Assembly: GCA_034190085.1 (NCBI GenBank)
Contig: JAXHTS010000008.1
Coordinates: 1-33,661 of the forward strand
DNA: 33,661 bases
Source: Spirochaetota bacterium
GTDB lineage: Bacteria > Spirochaetota > UBA4802 > JAFGDQ01
Reading direction: 5' to 3'
The position numbers and the translations under genes are program-made. This document shows, one piece after another, positions 658 to 21,444 of this stretch (position 1 is its first letter; every line of letters starts with the position of its first letter). The notes below the pieces were generated by a model. That model was not told the origin of the DNA and searched no databases. It worked only from the letters and a program-made list of their open reading frames with translations.

Positions 658-1944
658 ATGGAACTTGATAAGCCAGATAAATACACCTTAGAGTATCTTG
701 AAAGAAAGTTAGATAATCTTAGCAAACTTGTTGATATCAACAGAATAGTAAACTCCACTCTTGATATAGCTAAATTACTCACAATAATAATGGAAACGAT
801 CAAGGATATTATGCTGACAGAGGCGAGTACCCTTCTATTATATGATGAGGAAACTAATGATTTAGTATTCAAGGTTGCTCTGGGAGAAGCTGGAAAGGAA
901 TTAACAGAAAAATATAGGGTTAGATTAGGACAAGGAATAGCGGGTTGGGTTGCCGAAAATAGAAAGGCCCTGTACATTAATGATGTATATAGCGATAAAC
1001 GCTTTGATCCCAACTTTGATAGGATAACAGGATTTAAGAGTAAATCAATTCTCTGCTCACCACTACTTTTTAAGGGAAAGCTTATTGGTGTAATTCAGGC
1101 AATAAATCCCTTAGGAAGGGCGGTATTTAATGACGATGACACAGCACTCTTTAATGCATTTGCTGATCAGGCTGTTTTAGCGGTTCAGAATGCGATCCTT
1201 TTTCAGAATGCACTTGAGGAGGGTAGGATTAAATATGAACTTAAGGCTGCCAGTTCTATTCAGAAGTCTCTCTTGCCTGTTATAAACCAGAAAATTAATA
1301 ATATTAAAATAGCTGCTAGATTTGTATCAGCAAGAGAGGTGGGAGGGGAATTTTATGATATATTTCAATTCAATAATGATTCCATTGGCATAGCGATCGG
1401 GGATATTCATACAAGAGGGATACCTGGAGCGCTGTATGCTTCTATTATAAGTGGTGTGGTGAAGGCTCTCTCAAGGATAATTGGCAGAAGTCCGGTAAAA
1501 TTACTCAAGTATGTAAATGAAGTAATAAAGGATAATTGTGAATTCATAAGTAACGTGTCCCTATTTTATGGTGTAATATCCTGCAAGGAGAAAGATATCC
1601 AATTTGTTAATGCTGGAGTTGCATATCCAATAATAGTCCGAAATGGTGTGGCAAGATATCTGAAATTTGAGATTAAATCCATTTGGGAAGAGACGATATG
1701 GCCTAAGAGAATAAGGGTAAAATTAGAAAAAGATGATATTTTTATAATCATTACTGATGGGATAGTGAATATAAAGGATAGAGGGGCTAAGCACCTTGGT
1801 CTTAAGAGGATAATGGATTTTTTGAGTAATGAAAAAAAATCCCCAGAGGATATTGTTGATTCCTTGATTAGGCTTGCAGATGATTTTGCTGATGGGTTAG
1901 AGAAGAGAGAGGATATTTCTGTTATTGCATTTGAGGTTGAGTAA
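658..1944 (+). CDS. GAF-domain SpoIIE/PP2C-type protein phosphatase
   Basis: Soluble regulator of about 428 residues. An N-terminal helical stretch (about 10-35) precedes a GAF sensor domain (about 40-180, with GQGIAGWVAENRKALYINDV and FADQAVLAVQNA). A short linker (IQKSLLP, typical of RsbU-like proteins) leads to a PP2C/SpoIIE phosphatase domain (about 220-427). Phosphatase motifs seen are GGEFYD near 229-234, GDIHTRGIPGA near 248 and ITDGI near 366. The first metal-binding Asp of the usual GGDFYD is Glu, and the GDVSGKG-type loop is divergent. Family members dephosphorylate anti-sigma-factor antagonists. A TTG at 628 extends the frame by ten codons; ATG 658 is preferred, although neither has a clear ribosome site. 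No anti-sigma partner is adjacent. Confidence 0.85.
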   Translation: MELDKPDKYTLEYLERKLDNLSKLVDINRIVNSTLDIAKLLTIIMETIKDIMLTEASTLLLYDEETNDLVFKVALGEAGKELTEKYRVRLGQGIAGWVAENRKALYINDVYSDKRFDPNFDRITGFKSKSILCSPLLFKGKLIGVIQAINPLGRAVFNDDDTALFNAFADQAVLAVQNAILFQNALEEGRIKYELKAASSIQKSLLPVINQKINNIKIAARFVSAREVGGEFYDIFQFNNDSIGIAIGDIHTRGIPGALYASIISGVVKALSRIIGRSPVKLLKYVNEVIKDNCEFISNVSLFYGVISCKEKDIQFVNAGVAYPIIVRNGVARYLKFEIKSIWEETIWPKRIRVKLEKDDIFIIITDGIVNIKDRGAKHLGLKRIMDFLSNEKKSPEDIVDSLIRLADDFADGLEKREDISVIAFEVE

Positions 1945-2019
1945 TCAATTTGATCTTGAGATTCCTTAACAATTTTTTTTATTATTGAAAATTTCTTATA
2001 ACAATCAATGGTGAATATT

Positions 2020-2238
2020 ATGAGTAATTTTATTTCTGTTATACTATGTAGAAATTGCAACTCCCGTTATGTTGAAATTGATGAATGGACTAGTGATATG
2101 AAGGCTGTGTTTTATTGTAAAACATGTCATTACAGCGAGGTTGTTGAGAAATTCACTTTAGGACGATGCAGGGTTTCTAATACTGAGCTTCAGAATGCAA
2201 GGGATACAAGAGCGACTCCGGGAAAGGCAGAGAGGTAA
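2020..2238 (+). CDS. Small zinc-ribbon protein, function unknown
   Basis: A 72-residue basic-tailed protein. Two Cys pairs, CRNC near residue 10 and CKTC near residue 34, are spaced as in a zinc ribbon. A third conserved-looking block, FTLGRCRVSNTELQNARDTRA, follows. It probably binds zinc, perhaps contacting nucleic acid or a protein partner; this is inference from the Cys pairs only. An in-frame ATG at 2008 would add four residues; neither start has a good ribosome site. It follows the phosphatase gene by about 75 bases on the same strand and converges with the next gene. Coding status is supported by the clean motif pattern. No specific function is claimed. Confidence 0.6.
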   Translation: MSNFISVILCRNCNSRYVEIDEWTSDMKAVFYCKTCHYSEVVEKFTLGRCRVSNTELQNARDTRATPGKAER

Positions 2239-2262
2239 TTAAAGATACCTGAACAGTTTTCC

Positions 2263-3075
2263 CTATTTGAATATTCTTTTAAGAATAGATTGAATGAAGA
2301 ATAATATTATTGTTAAAAGCCTGCCAAATCGCCAAGGCCTTGTGATTATTCGATAAAACCAGTCAAGACCTCTTTTCATAAAGAATGCTGGTGCCTTCTT
2401 GATCTCTCCAGATATTACGTCTAAACTGCCTCCAATACTAATAAATACTCCATTCTTAAATTCATTCTTTATTTTATATATCCATATGTCCTCTTTGGGA
2501 AAGCCAAGACCAACAAATACGATATCTGCATTGGACTTTCTTATTGCTTCTATAACAGATTTCTCTCTATCCTCATTAAAATATCCCCCATGCCTTCCCA
2601 CTATTCTGATCTTTGGAAAAGATTTTCGAATATTAAAAAATGCCTTTTCAACTATTTCAGATTTTCCACCAACCAAAAAAATTGTGTATTCATTTATCTC
2701 AGCAATTCGTATAATATCCATTATAAAGCTAATAATGGATATGCTCTCCTTTAATTGAGAGCCTATCTTTTTTGATGCCCATTTTATGCCTGCTCCACTG
2801 GCTAAATGCAAGGATGAACTGCTGGATATTATACTCAAGTCAGGATTAGATTTCATTCTCTTGATCTTGTAGGGATTAAATGAGATCACATGATGGAATC
2901 CACCCTTTTCAATCATCCTCATTACCTTAACAACAGCCTGATTTCGTGTAAGATTATCTATTCCTATTCCCAAAATATTTACAACATTCGCATCATCCAA
3001 GCTAGTTTGATTATACTCCAAGACTAAATCTCTATCTTCTTTCCAGGAATTATAATAGGATATATCATCTTGCAT
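2263..3075 (-). CDS. WecG/TagA/CpsF-like (GT26) glycosyltransferase, catalytic positions altered
   Basis: A 270-residue protein of the family that transfers N-acetylmannosamine-type sugars to undecaprenyl-linked acceptors in glycan synthesis. The C-terminal half is typical: VGLGFPKEDIWI near 186-197, SIGGSLDVISGEIKKAP near 211-227, and GLDWFYRIITRPWRFGRL near 234-251. The N-terminal active-site block is not. The usual 'aDGxG' reads ASGAG at 92-96, placing Ser where the catalytic Asp sits. The Thr expected just before the Asn-Pro near 67 is Phe. The C-terminal tail is basic and hydrophobic, fitting membrane association. The start ATG has AAGGAG seven bases upstream. It may be inactive or have changed chemistry. 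No glycan cluster surrounds it. Confidence 0.78.
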   Translation of the reverse strand: MQDDISYYNSWKEDRDLVLEYNQTSLDDANVVNILGIGIDNLTRNQAVVKVMRMIEKGGFHHVISFNPYKIKRMKSNPDLSIISSSSSLHLASGAGIKWASKKIGSQLKESISIISFIMDIIRIAEINEYTIFLVGGKSEIVEKAFFNIRKSFPKIRIVGRHGGYFNEDREKSVIEAIRKSNADIVFVGLGFPKEDIWIYKIKNEFKNGVFISIGGSLDVISGEIKKAPAFFMKRGLDWFYRIITRPWRFGRLLTIILFFIQSILKRIFK

Positions 3076-3358
3076 TGAATTCTCCTTGGAGTTTGTTCAT
3101 TTAATTACTCTATCTAAGGTGTGACTGTAAAAATTTCATTATACAAATATAGGGATTTTTGTTATTTGCTAATGATATATATGTAATATGCATTTATAGA
3201 TGGAGCATCAATCCTTTTCATAAATATTATATCATAACTTGATTTAGAAAATTACTGATGGAAAGGGTGTATCTCAGCTTCATTTTTCTAATCCTGAATA
3301 AGGCATACTCAGCGGTAATGATAAGAGGGGTATGCTCATCTCCATATTCTTTTTAATA

Positions 3359-4627
3359 TTATATAAAATTATTACTTTTAATAGCACAGAAGCTGCCACA
3401 CATGGAACATTGATCTGAATCGGATGGGATTTCACTTCTGTATTTCTGAGCCTTTTCTTTATCCAAAGATAGCTCAAATATTGCCTCCCAATCTCTCTCC
3501 TTTCTGGCCTTAGAAATTTTATTATCCCATTTAATTGCCCTATCATTCATCTTAACGATGTCAGCCACGTGAGCTGCTATCCTTGACGCAATGACCCCTT
3601 CCCTCACATCCTCAACTGTTGGAAGTCTAAGATGTTCTGCTGGGGTCACATAACAGAGAAAATCTGCCCCATTTGCCGCTGCTATTGCTCCACCAATTGC
3701 GGATGTAATATGATCATAACCAGGGGCTATATCCGTCACAATTGGTCCTAGAACATAATACGGCGCATTATCACAAAGGGCTTTTTGAAGCCTCATATTA
3801 TCTGCTATCATATTAATGGGAACATGACCAGGTCCTTCAATAATAGCCTGGACACCTCTCTCTCTCGCCCTTCTTGCTAATTTCCCAAGAAGAATCATTT
3901 CATGAGTTTGTCCTCTATCGTTAGCATCACTAATACAACCAGGCCTGAGACCATCACCAAGGCTTATGGCTACATTATATTTTTCTAATACATCAAGAAT
4001 CTCATCATAATGTTCATAGAGAGGATTCTCTTTATTGTGTCTGGATATCCACTCAGCCAAAATTGAGCCACCTCTGCTAGTTATTCCGATGATCCTTTGC
4101 TGAGAACGAAGGGATTCGATGGATCCTATTGTAACCCCAGCGTGAATTGTCATGAAATCCACGCCATCTTTAGCCTGTTTAGTGACAACCCTAAGGAAAT
4201 CCTCTATAGTCATATCGATGATTGATCTGTTTTTGCTAATCATATCCACAGCAACCTCATATAAGGGTACCGTGCCGAGAGGAACAGTTGATTGATCGAT
4301 TATTCTTTTACGGAAATCAGAGATGTCTCCTCCAATGCTAAGATCCATAACAGTATCCGCACCAGCTTCGATTGCAACTCGTAATTTTTCGAGTTCCACA
4401 TCCACGTCCATTAAATCCGGGGAGGATCCAATGTTGGCGTTAATCTTTGTGCTCAGGCCTCTACCCACCGCTATGGGATTGATGTCCCTAACATTATTCT
4501 TAAGTATAACAATTTCACCTTTTGCTAGCATTTGCATAACAAAATCAATGGATATATCTTCCACATTGGCGATATGCTCTATCTCAGGTGTGATAATTCC
4601 CTTTTTTGCGCTTGCTATATAGTTCAT
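3359..4627 (-). CDS. thiC: Phosphomethylpyrimidine synthase ThiC
   Basis: Radical-SAM enzyme that converts aminoimidazole ribotide to hydroxymethylpyrimidine phosphate for thiamine synthesis in the cytoplasm. The 422-residue protein is the short form, lacking the extra N-terminal domain of proteobacterial ThiC. Hallmarks visible are IEGPGHVPINMI, LGPIVTDIAPGYDHITSAIGGAIAA, FLCYVTPAEHL and the C-terminal [4Fe-4S] cluster motif CSMCGSFC close to residue 411. The tail ends about ten residues after it, as expected. An AAAGGA site precedes the ATG. I looked for a TPP riboswitch in the 260 bases upstream and did not recognise one. It stands alone, without other thi genes, apart from the distant MoaD/ThiF pair. 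Confidence 0.95.
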   Translation of the reverse strand: MNYIASAKKGIITPEIEHIANVEDISIDFVMQMLAKGEIVILKNNVRDINPIAVGRGLSTKINANIGSSPDLMDVDVELEKLRVAIEAGADTVMDLSIGGDISDFRKRIIDQSTVPLGTVPLYEVAVDMISKNRSIIDMTIEDFLRVVTKQAKDGVDFMTIHAGVTIGSIESLRSQQRIIGITSRGGSILAEWISRHNKENPLYEHYDEILDVLEKYNVAISLGDGLRPGCISDANDRGQTHEMILLGKLARRARERGVQAIIEGPGHVPINMIADNMRLQKALCDNAPYYVLGPIVTDIAPGYDHITSAIGGAIAAANGADFLCYVTPAEHLRLPTVEDVREGVIASRIAAHVADIVKMNDRAIKWDNKISKARKERDWEAIFELSLDKEKAQKYRSEIPSDSDQCSMCGSFCAIKSNNFI

Positions 4628-5692: not shown

Positions 5693-5993
5693 AATCAGGC
5701 CTTGTTTTAGATATTAGTTGAGTAGGGCATGATCATCTATGGGTGAGAAAGGGCTAACTTCATAGCAATTGTCGATATTCTACCTAACACTAACCATGAA
5801 GGCGACTTATCCTGACTTAGGATAGACTTAACGCGACATAACTATATCAAATGCTTAAAGCACTTGACAAATGGTTTGATATAATTAATAATCTAAAATC
5901 CACATTAATGCTGAAATATTAACTTCTCACCACCTTTTGATTATAAAATCAACTTCTATTCACTGAGCCGATACTGTTCTTAAGGAGATATAA
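5693..5993. other. Intergenic region with a weak promoter candidate
   Basis: No gene is recognised in these 301 bases. TTGACA at 5864-5869 is followed 17 bases later by AATAAT (5887-5892), a possible promoter for the methyltransferase-like gene with a leader of about 95 bases. A small inverted repeat (TATCCT/AGGATA) sits near 5808-5824. A clear AAGGAGAT ribosome site lies just before 5994. Confidence 0.3.
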
Positions 5994-6776
5994 ATGACAA
6001 TTTTAGAAAAGAGAAGAGAGTTTCTTGAATTTGACAGCAACAATAATTTCTATATTGAACCCGAGAACAGGCATAGCGCTGTCAGGGAGAGGTTATTTGA
6101 TATTATTAAAACATATAATCCCAAGATAATCGTAAAGGCGGGTATTGGAAGTGGGCGGCTCTTGTTGGATATAGCAAGGGAATTTGATATATATATGCTA
6201 GTTGTTGAACCGTCATTAAATATTATTAAAGATTTTTTACAGAAGAATAGAGAAGATGAAACAATTGAGAGGATTAAGTTTCTCAATGGAGATCTTCATG
6301 ATTTCCCTGTGGACTATTATGCAGCAGATCTTTTAATCTGCATTGATTATCTGGATATTTTTGATTCAAGTAGGTGCATAGATGAATTTAAGAGGGCGCT
6401 CCAATTTGATAAAATATTATTCATTTCTGGGACAGTGCTAAATAGTGATGACATTGAAGGCCTTTATGATGATTTTATGAGGATGGTGTTTCCATTACAC
6501 AATGATTATTACCTTGAAAATGATTTCAGGACCTTTCTGGAGCTAAAGGGATTTGAACTCATGAAGAGTATGCTCTTAAAATTTGAAAATAATATTAAGT
6601 CTGAGATTGAGTATTTTGCAAGCATATACAATGATAAATCCGAAGATTCTGCATATGCATTTCTGCAAAGTAATAGAGAGAAGTTTAATGAGCTTTATTG
6701 TATGGATGATGAATATAATTTCTCTACATCATATTATATTGGCACCTATATGAGAAAGAAGCCTGATAAGTCGTAA
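5994..6776 (+). CDS. Probable class I SAM-dependent methyltransferase
   Basis: A 260-residue cytosolic protein. Residues about 43-60 (PKIIVKAGIGSGRLLLDIA) fit the glycine-rich SAM-binding motif I of class I methyltransferases. An acidic end to the second strand follows (MLVVEPS, about 72-78). Next are a DLHDFP motif II-like stretch near 100 and the strand AADLLICIDYLDIF. The C-terminal third is charged and unassigned. The substrate cannot be predicted. The ATG is set by a good AAGGAG site six bases upstream. The next gene downstream is 167 bases away, so co-transcription with the Lol genes is possible but unproven. Confidence 0.65.
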   Translation: MTILEKRREFLEFDSNNNFYIEPENRHSAVRERLFDIIKTYNPKIIVKAGIGSGRLLLDIAREFDIYMLVVEPSLNIIKDFLQKNREDETIERIKFLNGDLHDFPVDYYAADLLICIDYLDIFDSSRCIDEFKRALQFDKILFISGTVLNSDDIEGLYDDFMRMVFPLHNDYYLENDFRTFLELKGFELMKSMLLKFENNIKSEIEYFASIYNDKSEDSAYAFLQSNREKFNELYCMDDEYNFSTSYYIGTYMRKKPDKS

Positions 6777-6943
6777 ATTCAGTTCTTACAGGTATAAATT
6801 GATCTATTTACTTTTTTCTATTGGTGCAATAATCCAACACTATTCAATTGAGAAGAATCTACTCTATCCATATGTGATGCAAGGGGTTGTTTCAAAAAAA
6901 TGCTTTATGTAAAATATGATTACATGGAAGGGAAGTATTATAT

Positions 6944-8248
6944 ATGAGATTATATGAATTCTTTATAGGGTATAGATACCTGAAGGCAAAGAAGAGTCAA
7001 CTCTTCATATCCTTTAATACGATACTCTCTGTAATAATTGTATTTATAGGGGTTTTTACACTTATCATTGTGATCTCAGTAATGAACGGATTCCAAAGCC
7101 AAATAAAAGATAAAATACTTGATGTTGATTCACATATCGCTGTTGAGGACCTTTATAATACTCAGGGCATGAAAGGGATTAGGGAGTATAAGCAGCTTAT
7201 GGAGAAGGTGAAATCGATTAAGGGTATATTGACGGTAAATCCATATATTCAGGGTCAAGGGCTTTTTAGATTCGTTGAAAATGTTAGTCCTGTAGTTATA
7301 AGAGGGATTGGAGGCAAGGATTATATGCCCTTAGACGTTCAAAAATTTATTATTGAAGGCGAAAAGGAATATAAGGGATATAGGGATGTGTATATCGGAT
7401 CCGAGATGGCATTTAATTATAATGTCAAGATAGGTGATATGATTGAACTAATAGTTCCAAAGGGAAGGTTGACCGCGACTACTGGAATAACCCCTGGAAA
7501 GGGTACCTTTAGGGTTATAGGTTTTTTTAAGACACATTATTATGAGTTTGATACAGGTCTGGTAATAATGTCCCTTAAATCAGCACAAAGATTATACGAG
7601 ATCGGGGATGTTGCAAAGGGATTGGCAATAAAAATTGATGATCTGTATAAAATGGATTATTATGCCTCGAAAATACAAACAGAAATAGGATTGGAATACC
7701 AAACCCTAACTGCTCAGCAGAGGAATGCCAATTTTTTCTATGCCCTTAAGCTTGAGAAGCTGATTATGACGATAATCCTGTTTCTGATTATTATCTCAGC
7801 AGGATTTACTATCATGGGCACAATGGTAATGGTTGTGATGGAAAAGAGAAAGCCAATTGGTATTCTGAAATCAATGGGAGCAAAACCAATTTCAATTATG
7901 GTTATATTCGTATTGGAGGGTTTTGTAATTGGCGTGATGGGATCATTGCTGGGTGTGATTTTTGGGCTTGCCGCTTCTCTAAACATCGAGTCGATAATCA
8001 GATGGATAGAGAATCTCATAAATGATGGAATGGTCTTCATCTATGATCTATTTAATCTTGGGGTATTCTATCATGTCTCCCTTGTGCCGAAAAACGTATA
8101 TTATCTTGATACCATCCCAACGGAGATAAAGCCTGAGTTTATTGTGACTGTTGCTATTCTGTCTGTTTTTCTCTCCACAATCTCGGCAATTTTTCCAGCA
8201 TGGCATGCATCGAGGCTGCGACCGGCTGAGATAATAAGATATGAATAA
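6944..8248 (+). CDS. Lipoprotein-releasing ABC transporter permease (LolC/LolE type)
   Basis: Inner-membrane permease that extracts outer-membrane-destined lipoproteins for delivery to the LolA carrier. The 434-residue sequence has the standard plan. One N-terminal membrane segment (about 22-48) is followed by a large periplasmic MacB-type domain (about 50-260). Three membrane segments then form the FtsX domain (about 273-300, 320-345 and 395-420). The ending ISAIFPAWHASRLRPAEIIRYE is typical of the family. MEKRKPIGILKSMGA near 304 is the conserved cytoplasmic coupling region. The ATPase gene follows after 25 bases. Only one permease is present, so it may act as a homodimer or pair with another encoded elsewhere. 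I cannot separate LolC from LolE. Confidence 0.9.
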   Translation: MRLYEFFIGYRYLKAKKSQLFISFNTILSVIIVFIGVFTLIIVISVMNGFQSQIKDKILDVDSHIAVEDLYNTQGMKGIREYKQLMEKVKSIKGILTVNPYIQGQGLFRFVENVSPVVIRGIGGKDYMPLDVQKFIIEGEKEYKGYRDVYIGSEMAFNYNVKIGDMIELIVPKGRLTATTGITPGKGTFRVIGFFKTHYYEFDTGLVIMSLKSAQRLYEIGDVAKGLAIKIDDLYKMDYYASKIQTEIGLEYQTLTAQQRNANFFYALKLEKLIMTIILFLIIISAGFTIMGTMVMVVMEKRKPIGILKSMGAKPISIMVIFVLEGFVIGVMGSLLGVIFGLAASLNIESIIRWIENLINDGMVFIYDLFNLGVFYHVSLVPKNVYYLDTIPTEIKPEFIVTVAILSVFLSTISAIFPAWHASRLRPAEIIRYE

Positions 8249-8273
8249 CATGCAAATGGGCGAGGCCTTATAA

Positions 8274-9020
8274 ATGAAACAATACATACTTGAAGTTGAG
8301 AACCTTGAGAAGATATATGGTTATGGCAAAAATGCGCTTAGGGTATTGGAAAAAGTATCCTTAAGGGTTGAAAAGGGCGAGATTGTATCTATTATCGGAC
8401 CTTCCGGAGCGGGAAAATCTACTCTATTGAACATGATAGGATGTATTGATGGATTTAATTCAGGCAAACTGATGCTACTTGGGAAGGATGTTTCCAATCT
8501 CACTGTTGATGAGTTGTCTGGATTCCGAAATAGGCATGTTGGGTTTATTTTCCAGTTTCATAATCTTCTGAATGAGTTTACAGTTCTTGAAAATATAATG
8601 ATTCCCTTACTAATAAGGAGGGTTCCGAATAGAGAGGCCAATAGGAGAGTAAAAGACATAATTGAAAGGTTTAATCTATCGCAGAGGATCCATTATAAAC
8701 CCACTGAGCTTTCAGGAGGTGAATGCCAGAGGATTGCTGTTGCAAGAGCAATTGTGGGAAATCCTGATATTGTACTCGCTGATGAGCCAACAGGGAACCT
8801 GGATAGTGTAAATTCTAGGATATTGACGGATACCCTTCTTGATCTTGTTAGGGAGAATAACACCACTATTATAATAGTGACACATGATAAAGACATCGCC
8901 GCAATGACAGATAGGACAATAACCCTAGTGGATGGTAATATTCTTCAAGATGAATATAACATAAAGAGAGATGAGGTCCTTCATGAGATCAATGAAGGGA
9001 TAAGTATTGACAGTATCTAA
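8274..9020 (+). CDS. lolD: Lipoprotein-releasing ABC transporter ATPase LolD
   Basis: ATP-hydrolysing subunit that powers the adjacent permease. The 248-residue protein has Walker A GPSGAGKST (about 42-50), the Q-loop in FIFQFHNLL, the signature LSGGECQRIAVARA (about 145-158), Walker B IVLADEPTGNLD and the switch His in VTHDKD. The 'FQFHNLLNEFTVLENIMIPLLI' region is typical of the LolD/MacB branch of ABC ATPases. It carries about 20 more residues at the C-terminus than E. coli LolD. It is encoded 25 bases after the permease on the same strand, so the two surely form an operon. Confidence 0.92.
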   Translation: MKQYILEVENLEKIYGYGKNALRVLEKVSLRVEKGEIVSIIGPSGAGKSTLLNMIGCIDGFNSGKLMLLGKDVSNLTVDELSGFRNRHVGFIFQFHNLLNEFTVLENIMIPLLIRRVPNREANRRVKDIIERFNLSQRIHYKPTELSGGECQRIAVARAIVGNPDIVLADEPTGNLDSVNSRILTDTLLDLVRENNTTIIIVTHDKDIAAMTDRTITLVDGNILQDEYNIKRDEVLHEINEGISIDSI

Positions 9021-9385
9021 CTCCGCAAAGAAAGATTCCTACAAAAAAAATTATTTCATAATCCCAGAAAGCAATCAGGTAAATATTTATTTCTTGTATT
9101 TCACCCTCAGATAATCTAATATATATGGTGTAATGATAACCGATGTTAAGTTGAATAATCGAAACTCGATTAAACCTTCTTCCAAATTTATACAATCTAT
9201 TATATGTCGGGTTCACGCCTGACATTTCTATTACTTGATGAGAGTACATTGTTATACCAGATAATAATCTAATTCTAATAATGTTACGAGCCTGATTCAG
9301 GAGGATATAGTAATGTTAACAAAACCTGAATGTTATGAGCTTTTTCATTGATAGACCCTATATGAAAAAGTAGATAGGAGAAATC
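9021..9385. other. Intergenic region with a weak hairpin
   Basis: These 365 bases show no convincing gene. A seven-pair stem with one G-T pair lies at 9205-9224 (TGTCGGG, loop TTCACG, CCTGACA); it has no T-run and is a weak terminator candidate at best. An AGGAGA ribosome site for the next gene is at 9377-9382. Confidence 0.3.
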
Positions 9386-10483
9386 ATGCCTGAAGAAATA
9401 CAAACTATTACAGATAAGAATAGTTTTGAGAAGATTCTCAAGTATTTTTTAAATAATCCTGCCTATCTAAAATCGGATAATGGGAATATTAAAGTACAAT
9501 TTTTTCAATACCATAATGATAAAGCCGCATTCAGGATACAACTCATAAAAAAAATTCAGGAAGATAGTGTAATCTTTACAAGGCATCATAATAATACAAT
9601 ATATGCCTATTTAAAATTCTTCGAGAGACAGGGGGAAGACACATTCCTATTTATCCCGAGCAGGTTTCAGATCATGACTGATACCAGAAAAGAAAATCGA
9701 ATATCGCTTAACATCGGGGGAGAAGAGAGAAAAATAATATATGTATCCAATATAATCTCTGACTTAATAATTAAGAATTCACTTGCAATGGAGATTAAGA
9801 AAACAGATCGTATAAAAGAGATGTTCAAGAATAATATTGCGAACAAATATAAGCACTTGAAGATTTATTTCTGTAATGAAGGGATGAATGATCCCAGAAT
9901 GAAATATTTCTTTGCTCAAAGAAAACCAATTTTTATTCCTGATATTAACAATCCACAATCAGTGAAGGACGATAACGAGTTCAATTCCTATATAAACAAT
10001 ATCTATTCGAAAGATATATATTTAAAGAGCAATGCGGAACTCATTTCCGAGATTTCCGTGCCACTTCTTTATAAGATGAAGATGCCATACGGTTATATTA
10101 AGATTCATAGTGACGCACCCTTTGCAGAGTCAATATTCTCAATTGTAAAAAAAGTCGCTATAAAGATGGATGAGCTTATTATTAAAAACAAGATATTTCC
10201 AATCTCAGAGGATAAGCTTATAGTAAGTAATGTCTCAAGAAGTGGTTTGGGATTAGCATTTAAGAAAAAAAAATTGATTCGATACTTTAAAGAGAATTGC
10301 ATTATTTATGGAGAGATGATATTGCCGGAGTATAAAAAGGCATCCTTAATCGCGGTAGTTAAGCACATAAGCATATTGAGTAATAATATTATCCATGTTG
10401 GTCTTGAAATAAGTGAAATGGATGCCTTAAGTGAAATAAACTATGAAGAATTTCTTGAATCTATTGATTATTCCTCAGAATAG
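9386..10483 (+). CDS. PilZ-like protein resembling the Leptospira DUF1577 family
   Basis: A 365-residue soluble protein without membrane segments. An RxxxR-type stretch (RKENRISL near 101) lies in the middle. A C-terminal block reads VSNVSRSGLGLAFKKK (near 277), followed by strands ending IIHVGLEISEM. The N-x-S-x-x-G element plus an upstream Arg motif is how PilZ domains bind cyclic di-GMP. Here the two are about 175 residues apart, which is unusual, so the C-terminal domain may be PilZ-like without the classical ligand loop. Overall length and pattern recall spirochaete proteins grouped as DUF1577. The start is set by AGGAGA. Role: probably second-messenger or envelope signalling, inferred only. 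Confidence 0.55.
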   Translation: MPEEIQTITDKNSFEKILKYFLNNPAYLKSDNGNIKVQFFQYHNDKAAFRIQLIKKIQEDSVIFTRHHNNTIYAYLKFFERQGEDTFLFIPSRFQIMTDTRKENRISLNIGGEERKIIYVSNIISDLIIKNSLAMEIKKTDRIKEMFKNNIANKYKHLKIYFCNEGMNDPRMKYFFAQRKPIFIPDINNPQSVKDDNEFNSYINNIYSKDIYLKSNAELISEISVPLLYKMKMPYGYIKIHSDAPFAESIFSIVKKVAIKMDELIIKNKIFPISEDKLIVSNVSRSGLGLAFKKKKLIRYFKENCIIYGEMILPEYKKASLIAVVKHISILSNNIIHVGLEISEMDALSEINYEEFLESIDYSSE

Positions 10484-10538
10484 GATAATTTTATTTTTTT
10501 ATCTTGACTTATTTGAAAAATATATCAAATTGATATTC

Positions 10539-12272
10539 ATGAATCAGGCAGTGACATATAGTGGGCAAAATGTTCTGGAGTATGACTTCAGTACCTATTC
10601 CAGATATTGGCGAGTTAACAGATCTACTCATGAGGCTACAGAACTTGCTCTAATTTTAAGGGCATTGCGCAAGGTTGTCAGTCATATTGGAACTAACGTA
10701 AAGCCAATACATTGGGCAGGAATGACTGATTCGAACAATAAGTCTATCATCATAAATGCTGATGAAATCCAAGGTGTTTACCCTATCCCTTACGAGCAGA
10801 TGGATTTATTTGTGGGTCATGTCGTTCGTGAAGCCTTTGCGAGTATAGAATGGAGCGAATGGATAAGAGACCGCATTCAGGAACAGGTTGTTAAATCATA
10901 TAAGGATAAACTCGATTTTCTCAGCAAAATGTTTGTAGCAGCAGAGGATATCTATATAAGTTATTTTGTTAATTCTAGAATTTGGCCTCTCTATCTTAAT
11001 AATTATTGGAACTATCTGGATCATATCAATTATAGAGATCCTTCGCTTCCACCAACCCCTACGTCGTTATCCAATGTCTGGAAAAAGTGCATTCTATTAA
11101 ATGAAAAGCCTGATAATCTCCATCCATATTATGAAGTTCCCTTGAGTATTCTAATTACCTATACTCAAGCCATAAAAATAGCTTCACAACTTTCTTCTGT
11201 TGGACAACGGAGAAATAGTAGGGTAGATATTTATGTCAGAATGTGGGAGATGCTCTACAGAGCGATATCAAATTGGGAAAAGATCGATTTCCCGGACGAG
11301 GGGGTAAACATACCCGATGAGTTAGGCCCCAAGAAAAATACTGAAGATATCTCTGATGTTAAAGAGGATGAGATCGCTCAGGAAGAGGAAGAGGTCGAAA
11401 ACACAGAAGAGCTCGATCCTGATCTTGTCTCAAAGATTAGTACAATTTTAGAGGAAGGTGAGACGGATTTAACAAAGAACATTGCCATTGCCGTTGAGGA
11501 GCCTACAGCCAAGGATATGACTACAATCCATACTAGGGCCTCTGCCACATCGTCAGTCGTTGCTGATTCGATTCAGGTGAGGCGATTAAGAAAAATATTT
11601 AAGAAGCAAAAGGCTCTGCATAAGAAGTTAAGCCAGAGACATGTAAAAAGATATTTGGATCAGGGAAAACTAGACGCACGTAGATTGTTCCGAGTGCCCA
11701 TCGATGGAAAGGTCTTTAAATGCAAGATCACTATTCGCCCAGAGAAGGCATGGAATATTACGATCGTTTCTGATGCTTCTGCCTCAATGAGTGGAAGAAA
11801 TACAGTACAGAGGCCATGGGATTCCGCTGAAAAAACCTTTGTCTCTCTGGTTGAGGCAGCTAAGGGTTTTAAAAATCAACTCGATGTTTATGGCTATCAT
11901 GAAGAGGGTGACCAATGTGTTCTAATAAAACTCTATCATAATGATACACTCTTTACTGTGACACCCTCAGGCCGAACCCCATCAGGTCAGGCTATTATGG
12001 CAGCAGCATTAATGATGAAAGAAAGATACCAAAAAAAATTGATAATTCACATTACTGATGGAGCGGCAAATTGTGGTCTAAATATTGTAAAGTCATTAGA
12101 TTATTGTAAAAATAAAAATATTGATCTAATTACAATCGGATGCGGATGTAATCAGCAGACTAGCGATTTTCTAAGAACAAGATTCCCCGAAGGTCAGCTG
12201 TTGCTGATGGATGATATTAACGATCTATCAGTAGGACTGGAGAGATTGTTTAAGACTAAACTTCTAAAATAA
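10539..12272 (+). CDS. VWA-domain protein resembling the CobT cobaltochelatase subunit
   Basis: About 577 residues. The N-terminal region (1-260) is helical and aromatic-rich. An acidic linker (about 268-310) and a basic helical stretch (about 347-385) follow. The C-terminal VWA domain (about 405-577) has an intact metal-ion-dependent adhesion site: DASAS at 412-416, Thr480 in PSGRTPSGQA and TDGAAN near 506. The domain order (helical, acidic linker, VWA) is that of CobT and related partners of MoxR/CobS AAA+ ATPases. No cobalamin gene or MoxR ATPase is nearby, so a chelatase role is unsupported. A longer frame begins at 10443 and overlaps the upstream gene by 41 bases. ATG 10539 is preferred because protein-like composition begins there, though it lacks a clear ribosome site. 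Confidence 0.75.
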   Translation: MNQAVTYSGQNVLEYDFSTYSRYWRVNRSTHEATELALILRALRKVVSHIGTNVKPIHWAGMTDSNNKSIIINADEIQGVYPIPYEQMDLFVGHVVREAFASIEWSEWIRDRIQEQVVKSYKDKLDFLSKMFVAAEDIYISYFVNSRIWPLYLNNYWNYLDHINYRDPSLPPTPTSLSNVWKKCILLNEKPDNLHPYYEVPLSILITYTQAIKIASQLSSVGQRRNSRVDIYVRMWEMLYRAISNWEKIDFPDEGVNIPDELGPKKNTEDISDVKEDEIAQEEEEVENTEELDPDLVSKISTILEEGETDLTKNIAIAVEEPTAKDMTTIHTRASATSSVVADSIQVRRLRKIFKKQKALHKKLSQRHVKRYLDQGKLDARRLFRVPIDGKVFKCKITIRPEKAWNITIVSDASASMSGRNTVQRPWDSAEKTFVSLVEAAKGFKNQLDVYGYHEEGDQCVLIKLYHNDTLFTVTPSGRTPSGQAIMAAALMMKERYQKKLIIHITDGAANCGLNIVKSLDYCKNKNIDLITIGCGCNQQTSDFLRTRFPEGQLLLMDDINDLSVGLERLFKTKLLK

Positions 12273-18327: not shown

Positions 18328-19017
18328 TTATGAATCTTCGTCACTGCTGCTCCTAAGTATTACTAATGCATCAACTGCAACTGGTTTATTGCCAGCAATT
18401 ATAAGTGGATTTATGTCTATTTCAGCAATCTCGTCATACTCCATTCCTAAATCTCCTATCCCGATAAGCGCCTTTACTAAAACAGACCTATCTACTGCAG
18501 GACTACCCCTGAATTCATCAAGAAGCTTCTTGGTCTTGATCTCATCAATCATCTCCTCGGCATCGAACTCCGTAATGGGCGCAATCCTGAAGCTAACATC
18601 CTTCAATACCTCAGTAAAAATACCTCCAAGCCCGAACATAACACATGGTCCAAACTGAGGATCTCTCGTTAAACCAATGACAAACTCTCTAACACCCTTA
18701 ATCATTTCCTGAACCAGTACCCCATCGAGCTTTGTATCTTTACTCATTATTTCATCAAATGTAGCAATAACCTCTTCATCATTAGCTACCCCCAATTTCA
18801 CCATACCCATCTCTGTCTTGTGAGTAACCACATCAGAACACCCTTTTAATACTAAAGGATAACCTATATCCTTCGCTATTTTCAGCGCCTTATCCTTTGA
18901 GGTAGCCAAACCCTCTCGTGTAATTGGAACACCCGCCATATTTACAAGCCTTTTGGAATCGTATTCCGAAAGCGCCTTCTGTCCTTTTTCAATAGCATTT
19001 TTAATTATTTCTTGCAT
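18328..19017 (-). CDS. ATP-grasp beta subunit of ADP-forming acyl-CoA synthetase
   Basis: A 229-residue ATP-grasp protein of the acetyl-CoA synthetase (ADP-forming) beta-subunit type, which links acyl-CoA hydrolysis to ATP formation or the reverse. Visible blocks are GYPLVLKGCSDVVTHKTEMGMVKLG (near 52-76), VLVQEMIKGVREFVIGLTRDPQFGP (near 100-125), VMFGLGGIFTEVLKDVSFRIAP and AEIDINPLII near the end. Length fits the separate beta subunit. The CoA-binding alpha subunit that carries the phosphorylated His is not in the window, so this gene is an orphan here. GAGGTAA precedes the ATG. Substrate unknown; other acyl groups are possible. Confidence 0.88.
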   Translation of the reverse strand: MQEIIKNAIEKGQKALSEYDSKRLVNMAGVPITREGLATSKDKALKIAKDIGYPLVLKGCSDVVTHKTEMGMVKLGVANDEEVIATFDEIMSKDTKLDGVLVQEMIKGVREFVIGLTRDPQFGPCVMFGLGGIFTEVLKDVSFRIAPITEFDAEEMIDEIKTKKLLDEFRGSPAVDRSVLVKALIGIGDLGMEYDEIAEIDINPLIIAGNKPVAVDALVILRSSSDEDS

Positions 19018-19817: not shown

Positions 19818-20549
19818 TCAAATAGTGGAACAGGATTGACATTGAGTATTTCGATTAAGCTTCACTTCTCGAAATTTCATGTTTATACCGTCAAAGACCA
19901 TGAGTCGGTTAGTGAGCAGTTTCCCGATTCCCACAATGAGCTTGATTGCCTCCATTGCCTGTAGGCAGCCAATGATACCTGAAGTTGTCCCCAATACAGG
20001 GGTTATCGTGGAAGGTGGGGCAACAGGGAAGATGCATCGTAGACAGGCTGTCTCTCCAGGTATCATTGTGGTTAAAGCGCCTTCTAACCCGTAAATACCA
20101 CCATATATATAAGGAATATTCATATTAAGGGCAGCTTGATTCAATAGATATCTTGTTGGAAAATTATCCAAAGCATCCAGAATTATGTCACAATCATGTA
20201 AAAGTTTAATGACATTATCCTCGGTTATTGTTCCAACTACACCCTCTATATTGATAGAGGGGTTTAATTCTTGCATCTTCTCTTGTGCAGCACTTGCCTT
20301 TTTTCTTCCAATATCCCTATCCAGATAGAGAATCTGACGATTGAGGTTGCTCAAACTTACTTCATCATGATCTACGATTCGTAAATTCCCCACACCTGCC
20401 GCGGCAAGGTAGTAAGAGATGGGTGAACCTAGCCCTCCTGCTCCAGAAATGAGAATACTTGATCTCTGCAGTTTCTCCTGCCCTTCAATCCCAATATCAT
20501 CAACGAGAATTTGCCTCCTATACCTCTCTTGTTCCTTCTCGGCAATCAT
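19818..20549 (-). CDS. E1-like sulfur-carrier adenylyltransferase (MoeB/ThiF/HesA family)
   Basis: A 243-residue E1-like enzyme that adenylates the C-terminal Gly-Gly of a small sulfur-carrier protein. It has the family opening RYRRQILVDDIGIEGQEKL, the nucleotide loop GAGGLGSP (about 36-43) and LSNLNRQILY with the catalytic Arg. DNFPTRYLLN and the structural zinc Cys pairs (CLRC near 190 and CQSC at the end) are also present. Its partner, the MoaD/ThiS-like gene, lies just upstream in the same operon. The open frame extends upstream to 20666, overlapping that partner gene, but the family's N-terminus matches a start at ATG 20549. Whether it serves molybdopterin, thiamine or another pathway is not decided by the sequence. 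Confidence 0.9.
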   Translation of the reverse strand: MIAEKEQERYRRQILVDDIGIEGQEKLQRSSILISGAGGLGSPISYYLAAAGVGNLRIVDHDEVSLSNLNRQILYLDRDIGRKKASAAQEKMQELNPSINIEGVVGTITEDNVIKLLHDCDIILDALDNFPTRYLLNQAALNMNIPYIYGGIYGLEGALTTMIPGETACLRCIFPVAPPSTITPVLGTTSGIIGCLQAMEAIKLIVGIGKLLTNRLMVFDGINMKFREVKLNRNTQCQSCSTI

Positions 20550-20625
20550 ATGATTTTCAACCTGTAGAGCAGGTATGTGGCTACCTTTGTAAAATAATCC
20601 AAAAGAAATGTCAATCTGCCCATCC

Positions 20626-20898
20626 TCATCCTCCTGCAAAAGCAGACATGAAATCCACTTCATCACCTTCTTTTAAAGGTGTCTGCATACCCTCAAGCAT
20701 ATTAATATTATCGCCATTTACAAAAACAGAAATCGAAGCCAGCACTTCTCCTTGATTATCACATATTTTATCTTTTGATCCCGGAAATCGTTCTTCGAGA
20801 TTATTGATACATTCCAGAACACTATTTGCAGAAAGCCGCACCTCTTCTTCACCATTTGTGAGTTTACACAACTCTCCTGAAAACCTTGCTATGATCAT
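20626..20898 (-). CDS. MoaD/ThiS-like ubiquitin-fold sulfur carrier
   Basis: A 90-residue beta-grasp protein ending in Gly-Gly (FMSAFAGG), the tail that is adenylated and thiocarboxylated to carry sulfur. Length and internal pattern (NGEEEVRLSANSVLECINNL, then VFVNGDNINML and PLKEGDEVDFMSAFAGG) fit MoaD-like proteins better than the shorter ThiS (about 66 residues). The start has a strong GAGGAGGT site that overlaps the end of the upstream gene, with 12 bases between them. The E1-like gene follows after 76 bases. No MoaE, MoaC or ThiG is nearby, so the sulfur acceptor is open. Relatives also supply tungsten cofactor for aldehyde:ferredoxin oxidoreductases. Confidence 0.9.
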   Translation of the reverse strand: MIIARFSGELCKLTNGEEEVRLSANSVLECINNLEERFPGSKDKICDNQGEVLASISVFVNGDNINMLEGMQTPLKEGDEVDFMSAFAGG

Positions 20899-20910
20899 TC
20901 CTAACCTCCT

Positions 20911-21444
20911 CTATTGCTTCCATCCTAAGCAGACATCGTCTGGTTTATCAAAAAAAATCTTAAACTTTTGGCGTGACTCTTCTCTAACACTCTCTGCTTC
21001 CTCCTCTGTCAAGTTATGAGACTTTATCCATGCTTCCATGTGCAGTCCCCCTGGCAACCACTTCTCAATAACCTCTCTCTCATAGACCCATCGTTTCCCC
21101 TTTGCGCCAATATTCAACATAATATCTAGAACCTCATCCCTCTGTCTGTCATCACAATAAACACACATAACACAATGCTCAAGTGTCGCCCATTTTTGAG
21201 GATCACGATCGTATTTAGCACAAGGAATCTTTCCGCTCTCAACATGAGGATCAATTTTTCTGGCCATCTCATGAATCTCCTCCTTTTCTCCAATGAAGAC
21301 CCACTTGCCCCAATGCTCTAAGTATTCCTTATTGGTTAATTGCTTGCCATCGAATTTCATGTAGGAAGGGGGTTCACTAGGGCCATCAAAATACTCTTTA
21401 TTAAGAATAAATATGTACCAGGACTCTGGTCTGTCAAAAATCAT
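20911..21444 (-). CDS. Uncharacterised 177-residue protein leading the sulfur-carrier operon
   Basis: A soluble 177-residue protein rich in Trp, Asp and Glu, without signal peptide or membrane segment. Distinct stretches are EHWGKWVFIGEKEEIHEMA (about 43-61), LEHCVMCVYCDD near 87-98 with three Cys in C-x2-C-x2-C spacing, and GAKGKRWVYE near 114. The GKW...HxxCVY pattern faintly recalls the Bles03/DUF1917 fold found in archaea and animals, but this is a weak resemblance. A strong AGGAGGT site precedes the ATG, and the MoaD-like gene starts 12 bases after its stop. A role with the carrier and E1 pair is likely from context only. Confidence 0.7.
   Translation of the reverse strand: MIFDRPESWYIFILNKEYFDGPSEPPSYMKFDGKQLTNKEYLEHWGKWVFIGEKEEIHEMARKIDPHVESGKIPCAKYDRDPQKWATLEHCVMCVYCDDRQRDEVLDIMLNIGAKGKRWVYEREVIEKWLPGGLHMEAWIKSHNLTEEEAESVREESRQKFKIFFDKPDDVCLGWKQ

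Follow-up and report, generated by a model that had tools for sequence, protein, structure and literature searches.

A three-gene module was identified that consists of a 177-residue protein of its own family (F177), a ubiquitin-like carrier (UBL) and an E1-like adenylyltransferase (E1). It probably helps to build or run hydrocarbon-activating radical enzymes, and occurs almost only in genomes that carry them. These enzymes, which are sensitive to oxygen and attack toluene and alkanes in its absence, are the X-succinate synthases (XSS), the fumarate-adding glycyl radical enzymes (GREs) that include the benzylsuccinate and (1-methylalkyl)succinate synthases. We hold it very likely that the module is associated with XSS, and an accessory role for XSS is likely; the specific chemistry proposed below is tentative. 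The module was found in a stretch of 33,661 nucleotides from a Spirochaetota bacterium (assembly GCA_034190085.1, contig JAXHTS010000008.1), here called the window, in which its genes are as follows:

20911-21444, minus strand: F177, 177 aa, open reading frame of an apparently undescribed family
20626-20898, minus strand: UBL, 90 aa, MoaD/ThiS-type beta-grasp carrier (PF02597, 1.7e-11; moaD_arch, 3.8e-13, just above its cut-off)
19818-20549, minus strand: E1-like adenylyltransferase of the MoeB/ThiF type, 243 aa (PF00899, 6e-77; start at ATG 20549)

All three genes are genuine, and they are conserved together as a cassette. The minus-strand reading frames exist where the first-pass annotation of the window had placed them, and the cassette is not a chance arrangement, because it recurs in other genera. 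Strong ribosome sites and tight spacing had been ascribed to all three genes. This holds for F177 and UBL, which are 12 nt apart and each follow a strong Shine-Dalgarno sequence (AGGAGG and GAGGAGG), but not for E1, which starts 76 nt after the end of UBL and has no strong Shine-Dalgarno sequence. The E1 reading frame as opened spans 19818-20666 (minus), and the GTG at 20666 falls within the UBL gene; the most likely start is ATG 20549, since homologues begin there. The cassette is followed on its own strand by a gene at 18328-19017 (minus) that resembles the ATP-grasp beta subunit of a CoA ligase (ADP-forming acyl-CoA synthetase type). No such gene was noticed beside the other F177 loci.

The UBL matches the ThiS/MoaD profiles over the whole domain and also shows similarity to the SAMP1 and Urm1 profiles. 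As had been noted for the window, the carrier ends in Gly-Gly (..SAFAGG) without an extension. None of the 17 carriers has residues beyond the terminal AGG or AAG that would need to be trimmed; 13 of them end in GG and four in AG (AAG). The E1 had been credited with all of its motifs. The nucleotide-binding motif and fold and both CxxC zinc pairs are indeed kept, and the protein aligns over its full length to ThiF (1zfn) and MoeB (1jw9), but the crossover-loop cysteine of these two enzymes is missing. In the alignment, the loop reads TITPVLG where ThiF has ..CRTAGVVG, and the cysteine is absent in 11/11 cassette E1s (that of the window and 10 related ones). A second E1 in the genome of the window (G000, C30; L074:9512-10240), next to which no carrier gene was detected, also lacks it, and the absence is therefore a feature of a wider clade and not of this system only. 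Taken together with an invariant cysteine in F177 (C97, see below), the missing loop cysteine favours a route in which the adenylate reacts directly with a sulfur donor or with F177; judged from these residues, such a route would be preferred over an E1 thioester followed by classical conjugation.

F177 has no sequence match in Pfam, NCBIfam or the PDB sequences. The same was found for its relatives: none of 19 members matched a Pfam family, and a profile of the 19 members gave only chance matches to PDB sequences. The residues that are invariant among the 19 homologues are W45-G-K-W48, K77-Y78, R80, C97-D98, R100, W119, W129, G132-G133 and W139. Two patterns that had been noted in the protein fared differently. 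C91-x2-C94-x2-C97 is not a signature of the family, as C97 is its sole invariant cysteine, whereas in the GKW...CVY pattern GKW (46-48) is invariant and the CVY part is not strict. The first-pass annotation had also pointed to Bles03/DUF1917, given a motif resemblance (GKW, ..VY..D). This identity found no HMM support, as none of the 19 members matched PF08939 at E<=10. A first AlphaFold model of F177 was too weak (pLDDT 69.5); a second, seeded with the member from L006, reached a pLDDT of 77.6 and has a beta-alpha-beta-beta-alpha-beta core. A Foldseek search with the latter returned nothing significant (best E-value 0.06). Entries of eIF4E recurred (probability up to ~0.9, TM ~0.37, E > 0.2), interspersed with folds of the aspartate-kinase regulatory, CutA1 and PII-like types, and no Bles03 structure was among the best 50 hits listed. 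The predicted fold thus weakly resembles eIF4E-like proteins, which is compatible with the Bles03 idea but does not establish it. The genome of the window encodes a paralogue of F177, 45% identical, on contig 75, with a further carrier (..AAGG) and a gene for a MoxR ATPase next to it.

Four relatives of F177, each with an adjacent carrier and E1, were found by scanning GTDB representatives, and in a profile search of 395 genomes of the phylum of Desulfosarcina 16 were positive, one of them only weakly. Of 21 F177 loci, 17 have the carrier directly adjacent and 11 have an E1 nearby; MoxR and/or VWA genes occur in about 12, and a GRE and/or GRE activase in 10. The family is therefore not one that occurs mostly apart from carrier and E1 genes, nor did any HMM assign it a known function, and F177 with its carrier, often with E1, can be taken as a conserved and apparently undescribed system, although F177 or UBL may correspond to a named gene among bssG-L of denitrifying betaproteobacteria. 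Two arrangements predominate. One is F177-UBL-E1 (the window, L003, L037, L052 and L005); the other is UBL-F177-MoxR-VWA-radical SAM-E1 (L038, L040, L041 and L043), with UBL-F177-MoxR in L007. In a third subfamily (L042, L048, L049) no carrier lies beside F177; in L042 and L049 it stands beside a glycyl radical enzyme and its activase.

The clearest links to XSS come from two loci. In L047, the module is part of the same operon as the bss genes, which run on a single strand as bssD-bssA-bssB-bssF-bssE-UBL-F177-E1. The BssA of this locus scored 1590 bits against the Thauera BssA structure (4pkc), BssB matched PF18512 (3.7e-40), and the activase scored 479 bits against the BssD profile, just below the cut-off of 496; the VWA protein is BssF-like and the MoxR protein BssE-like. 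In L005 (Desulfosarcina widdelii), the neighbour of the cassette is a GRE of the BssA type (1289 bits to 4pkc vs 503 to MasD), and homologues of BssE and BssF are present. Between the cassette and the bss genes of L005 lies a gene for a TetR-like regulator, whose homologue in L047 was identified by Pfam. A link of F177 to aldehyde:ferredoxin oxidoreductases (AORs), for which a search had been suggested, was not borne out: none was seen beside any F177 locus, and its conserved partners are fumarate-adding GREs, chaperones of the BssE/BssF type and a radical SAM/SPASM protein. There is no XSS gene in the window itself, and the link escaped the first reading because the XSS genes lie outside it. 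No F177 was found in the viral contig and plasmid collections searched, nor was BssA found in the plasmids.

The co-occurrence of the two families was scored with a cut-off of E<=1e-200 for XSS and two candidates per genome. Among the 395 genomes of the phylum of Desulfosarcina, 15 have a clear F177, 21 have XSS and 12 have both (Fisher p ~5e-15, a value that ignores relatedness and, as the genomes are related, overstates their independence). In the phylum of the window, 393 genomes were searched for each, and its own genome is the only one with F177 and the only one with XSS. F177 is lacking in 8/20 clear XSS genomes and is therefore not obligatory for XSS; it is a frequent but optional companion, not a universal one. 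Conversely, three F177-positive genomes (G394, G437, G525) have no full-length XSS at the strict cut-off; all of them have the VWA protein, and the genomes may be incomplete.

The genome of the window has 33 PFL-like hits, of which ~30 are of one XSS type. A representative scored 1319 bits to the solved MasD, a (1-methylalkyl)succinate synthase, vs 502 to BssA. With ~30 MasD-type large subunits in 4.3 Mb, many of them in tandem (C64, C52, C79, C67 and others; L055-L067), the genome shows an extreme expansion of this fumarate-adding enzyme; no other genome among the 393 of the phylum is of this kind. At L066, a gene for a glycyl radical enzyme is degenerate, with three internal stops (5751-7382; G000 C76:35513-37141), and a 732-aa reading frame nearby (1627-3825) looks by eye like an aldehyde:ferredoxin oxidoreductase. 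Another family of ~350 aa, which has a hydrophobic N-terminus resembling a signal peptide or anchor (..AKKxxKYxWKxAT..), recurs beside XSS copies and a class 2 VWA/radical SAM pair:

L059:8180-9223, L063:361-1395, L064:1062-2132 and 6508-9066, L065:604-1662, L086:2352-3401: ~350-aa family with hydrophobic N-terminus

One further protein of the proposed system is encoded in the window:

10536-12272, plus strand: BssF-like VWA protein, class 2, with a complete MIDAS (DASAS ... T ... TDG)

The reading frame of this protein opens at 10443, and homology places the start at ~10536. Its orthologues share an operon with UBL-F177-MoxR in L038-L041 and L043. With the window's own protein as the query, a BssF-like VWA protein was found in 17/17 F177-positive genomes tested, in 20/21 XSS-positive genomes and in 0/19 controls. 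The homologues fall into two classes: BssF proper, which lies beside XSS genes, and class 2, which includes the protein of the window and is found mostly in F177 genomes. The radical SAM/SPASM protein is present in 12/17 F177-positive genomes vs 0/8 XSS-positive genomes that lack F177. Its nearest named models, AhbD and NirJ2, matched far under their cut-offs, and the genome of the window has one such protein, at C83. A tandem array of the order radical SAM - MoxR - VWA - radical SAM - VWA - radical SAM was seen at L085:6862-14797 (G396 C35), where class 2 chaperone units are repeated away from F177.

The reading that we put forward, to which about an even chance is given, is that the module serves as a dedicated ubiquitin-like or sulfur-carrier relay for the maturation or upkeep of XSS and works with a MoxR-VWA pair. 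The C-terminal glycine of UBL would be adenylated by the E1, as suggested by the kept MoeB/ThiF fold and motifs. With no loop cysteine in the E1, the adenylate would then pass directly either to a sulfur donor, which would give UBL a thiocarboxylate as in the MoaD/MoeB pair, or to C97 of F177. Given its close adjacency, F177 may be the dedicated partner or acceptor of UBL, as MoaE is for MoaD. UBL/F177 and the MoxR ATPase-VWA chaperone pair of the BssE/BssF type would assemble, modify or repair the XSS complex. The radical SAM/SPASM enzyme may also join in many lineages; the small subunits of XSS carry Fe-S clusters. Against this reading stand the XSS genomes without F177, the three F177 genomes without a full-length XSS hit, the absence of XSS genes from the window and the F177 subfamily that has no carrier at its side. 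We know of no sulfur-derived modification of BSS. Stated at its most specific, F177 would be a new client or acceptor family with which the ubiquitin-like system installs or maintains something on fumarate-adding GREs, be it sulfur or a short-lived UBL tag, and the MoxR-VWA AAA+ machine would handle UBL; this version is possible, but the balance lies against it.

Several other explanations were weighed. The MoaD/ThiS and MoeB/ThiF sequence families would suit an ordinary sulfur carrier for molybdopterin, tungstopterin or thiamin. This is very improbable, since the genome of the window encodes a MoaD-MoaE-like pair elsewhere (C35) as well as a further ThiS-family protein (C73), and no MoaE, ThiG or AOR gene was seen in the F177 neighbourhoods. 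The separate genes suggest that the carrier of the window is a dedicated one and, as it appears, not that of the molybdenum cofactor. A role of UBL as a covalent modifier, which like SAMP or Urm1 would mark XSS subunits or F177 for repair or removal by the AAA+ protein, agrees with its profile similarity to both, with the conserved AAA+ partner and with a C-terminal glycine that is always exposed. It is nevertheless improbable: the E1 is without a loop cysteine, four carriers end in AAG rather than GG, and inspection of the neighbourhoods (not a per-family profile search) revealed no E2, JAB protease or proteasome gene.

It is also unlikely, if less so, that UBL acts chiefly by contacting the VWA MIDAS of the MoxR-VWA machine, in the manner of Rea1. 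The MIDAS of Rea1 contacts UBL domains through Mg2+ and an acidic residue of the UBL (PMC6624252), and NorQD illustrates how a MoxR-VWA pair can remodel clients (PMC13036017). The genes for UBL, MoxR and VWA lie side by side, or almost, in L038-L041, L043 and L047, and the MIDAS (DxSxS-T-TDG) is complete in all full-length VWA homologues checked, though not in a 400-aa protein of L049. Such a contact would, however, leave the E1 and the strictly free C-terminal glycine unexplained, and VWA proteins are also found in XSS genomes without F177. The link to XSS may instead be an indirect one, where the module serves another step of anaerobic hydrocarbon metabolism, for example with a cofactor that the radical SAM/SPASM protein makes, and co-occurs with XSS because of a common lifestyle. 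The radical SAM protein does track F177 better than XSS, and class 2 VWA loci are often without an adjoining GRE. This too is unlikely, given that the module is directly linked to bss genes in L047 and L005 and that F177-UBL stays by a GRE or activase in lineages without a nearby radical SAM gene.

If the most specific version is true, it would reveal a bacterial ubiquitin-like and AAA+ maturation pathway for hydrocarbon activation. XSS are hard to activate in vitro (PMC10239695), and the roles of bssE and bssF are still open; the carrier, E1 and F177 are concrete candidate factors for co-expression with XSS. The set also ties ubiquitin-like chemistry to anaerobic hydrocarbon degradation and can serve as a marker for a subset of fumarate-adding organisms. 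A literature search, with subscription papers outside its reach, gave nothing that connects bss genes to MoaD, ThiF or ubiquitin-like proteins.

Comparable systems are known. BssE and BssF of the bss operon are homologous to the MoxR AAA+ and VWA proteins described here and are needed for toluene degradation in denitrifiers: BssE is essential, and disruption of bssF abolishes growth on toluene, with polar effects on downstream genes not excluded (PMC5874301). The class 2 MoxR-VWA pairs, by contrast, are paralogues, and UBL, F177 and E1 go unnamed in the bss descriptions found (PMC5874301, PMC7285207). The pairing of the Rea1/Midasin MIDAS with the UBL of Rsa4 or Ytm1 likewise combines an AAA+ motor, a VWA/MIDAS domain and a ubiquitin-like partner, but it belongs to eukaryotic ribosome assembly and has no E1, whereas the UBL-VWA contact in the present system is putative. 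With the MoaD-MoeB pair, the module shares a beta-grasp carrier with a free C-terminal glycine and an adenylyltransferase of the MoeB/ThiF fold that has two CxxC pairs and lacks a rhodanese domain; it differs in having F177 as the partner instead of MoaE, in its linkage to fumarate-adding GREs, in the absent crossover-loop cysteine, and in that the genome of the window keeps a MoaD-MoaE pair apart from it. The survey of ubiquitin-like gene neighbourhoods in prokaryotes by Iyer et al. (2006, PMC1779556) includes AOR, siderophore and further contexts, among which benzylsuccinate and glycyl radical enzymes do not appear. In the AOR clusters of that survey, a carrier (MoaD) and an E1 (MoeB) are tied to one enzyme family by neighbourhood, as they are here; in the present case there is no AOR, the clients are GREs, and F177, MoxR and VWA are added.
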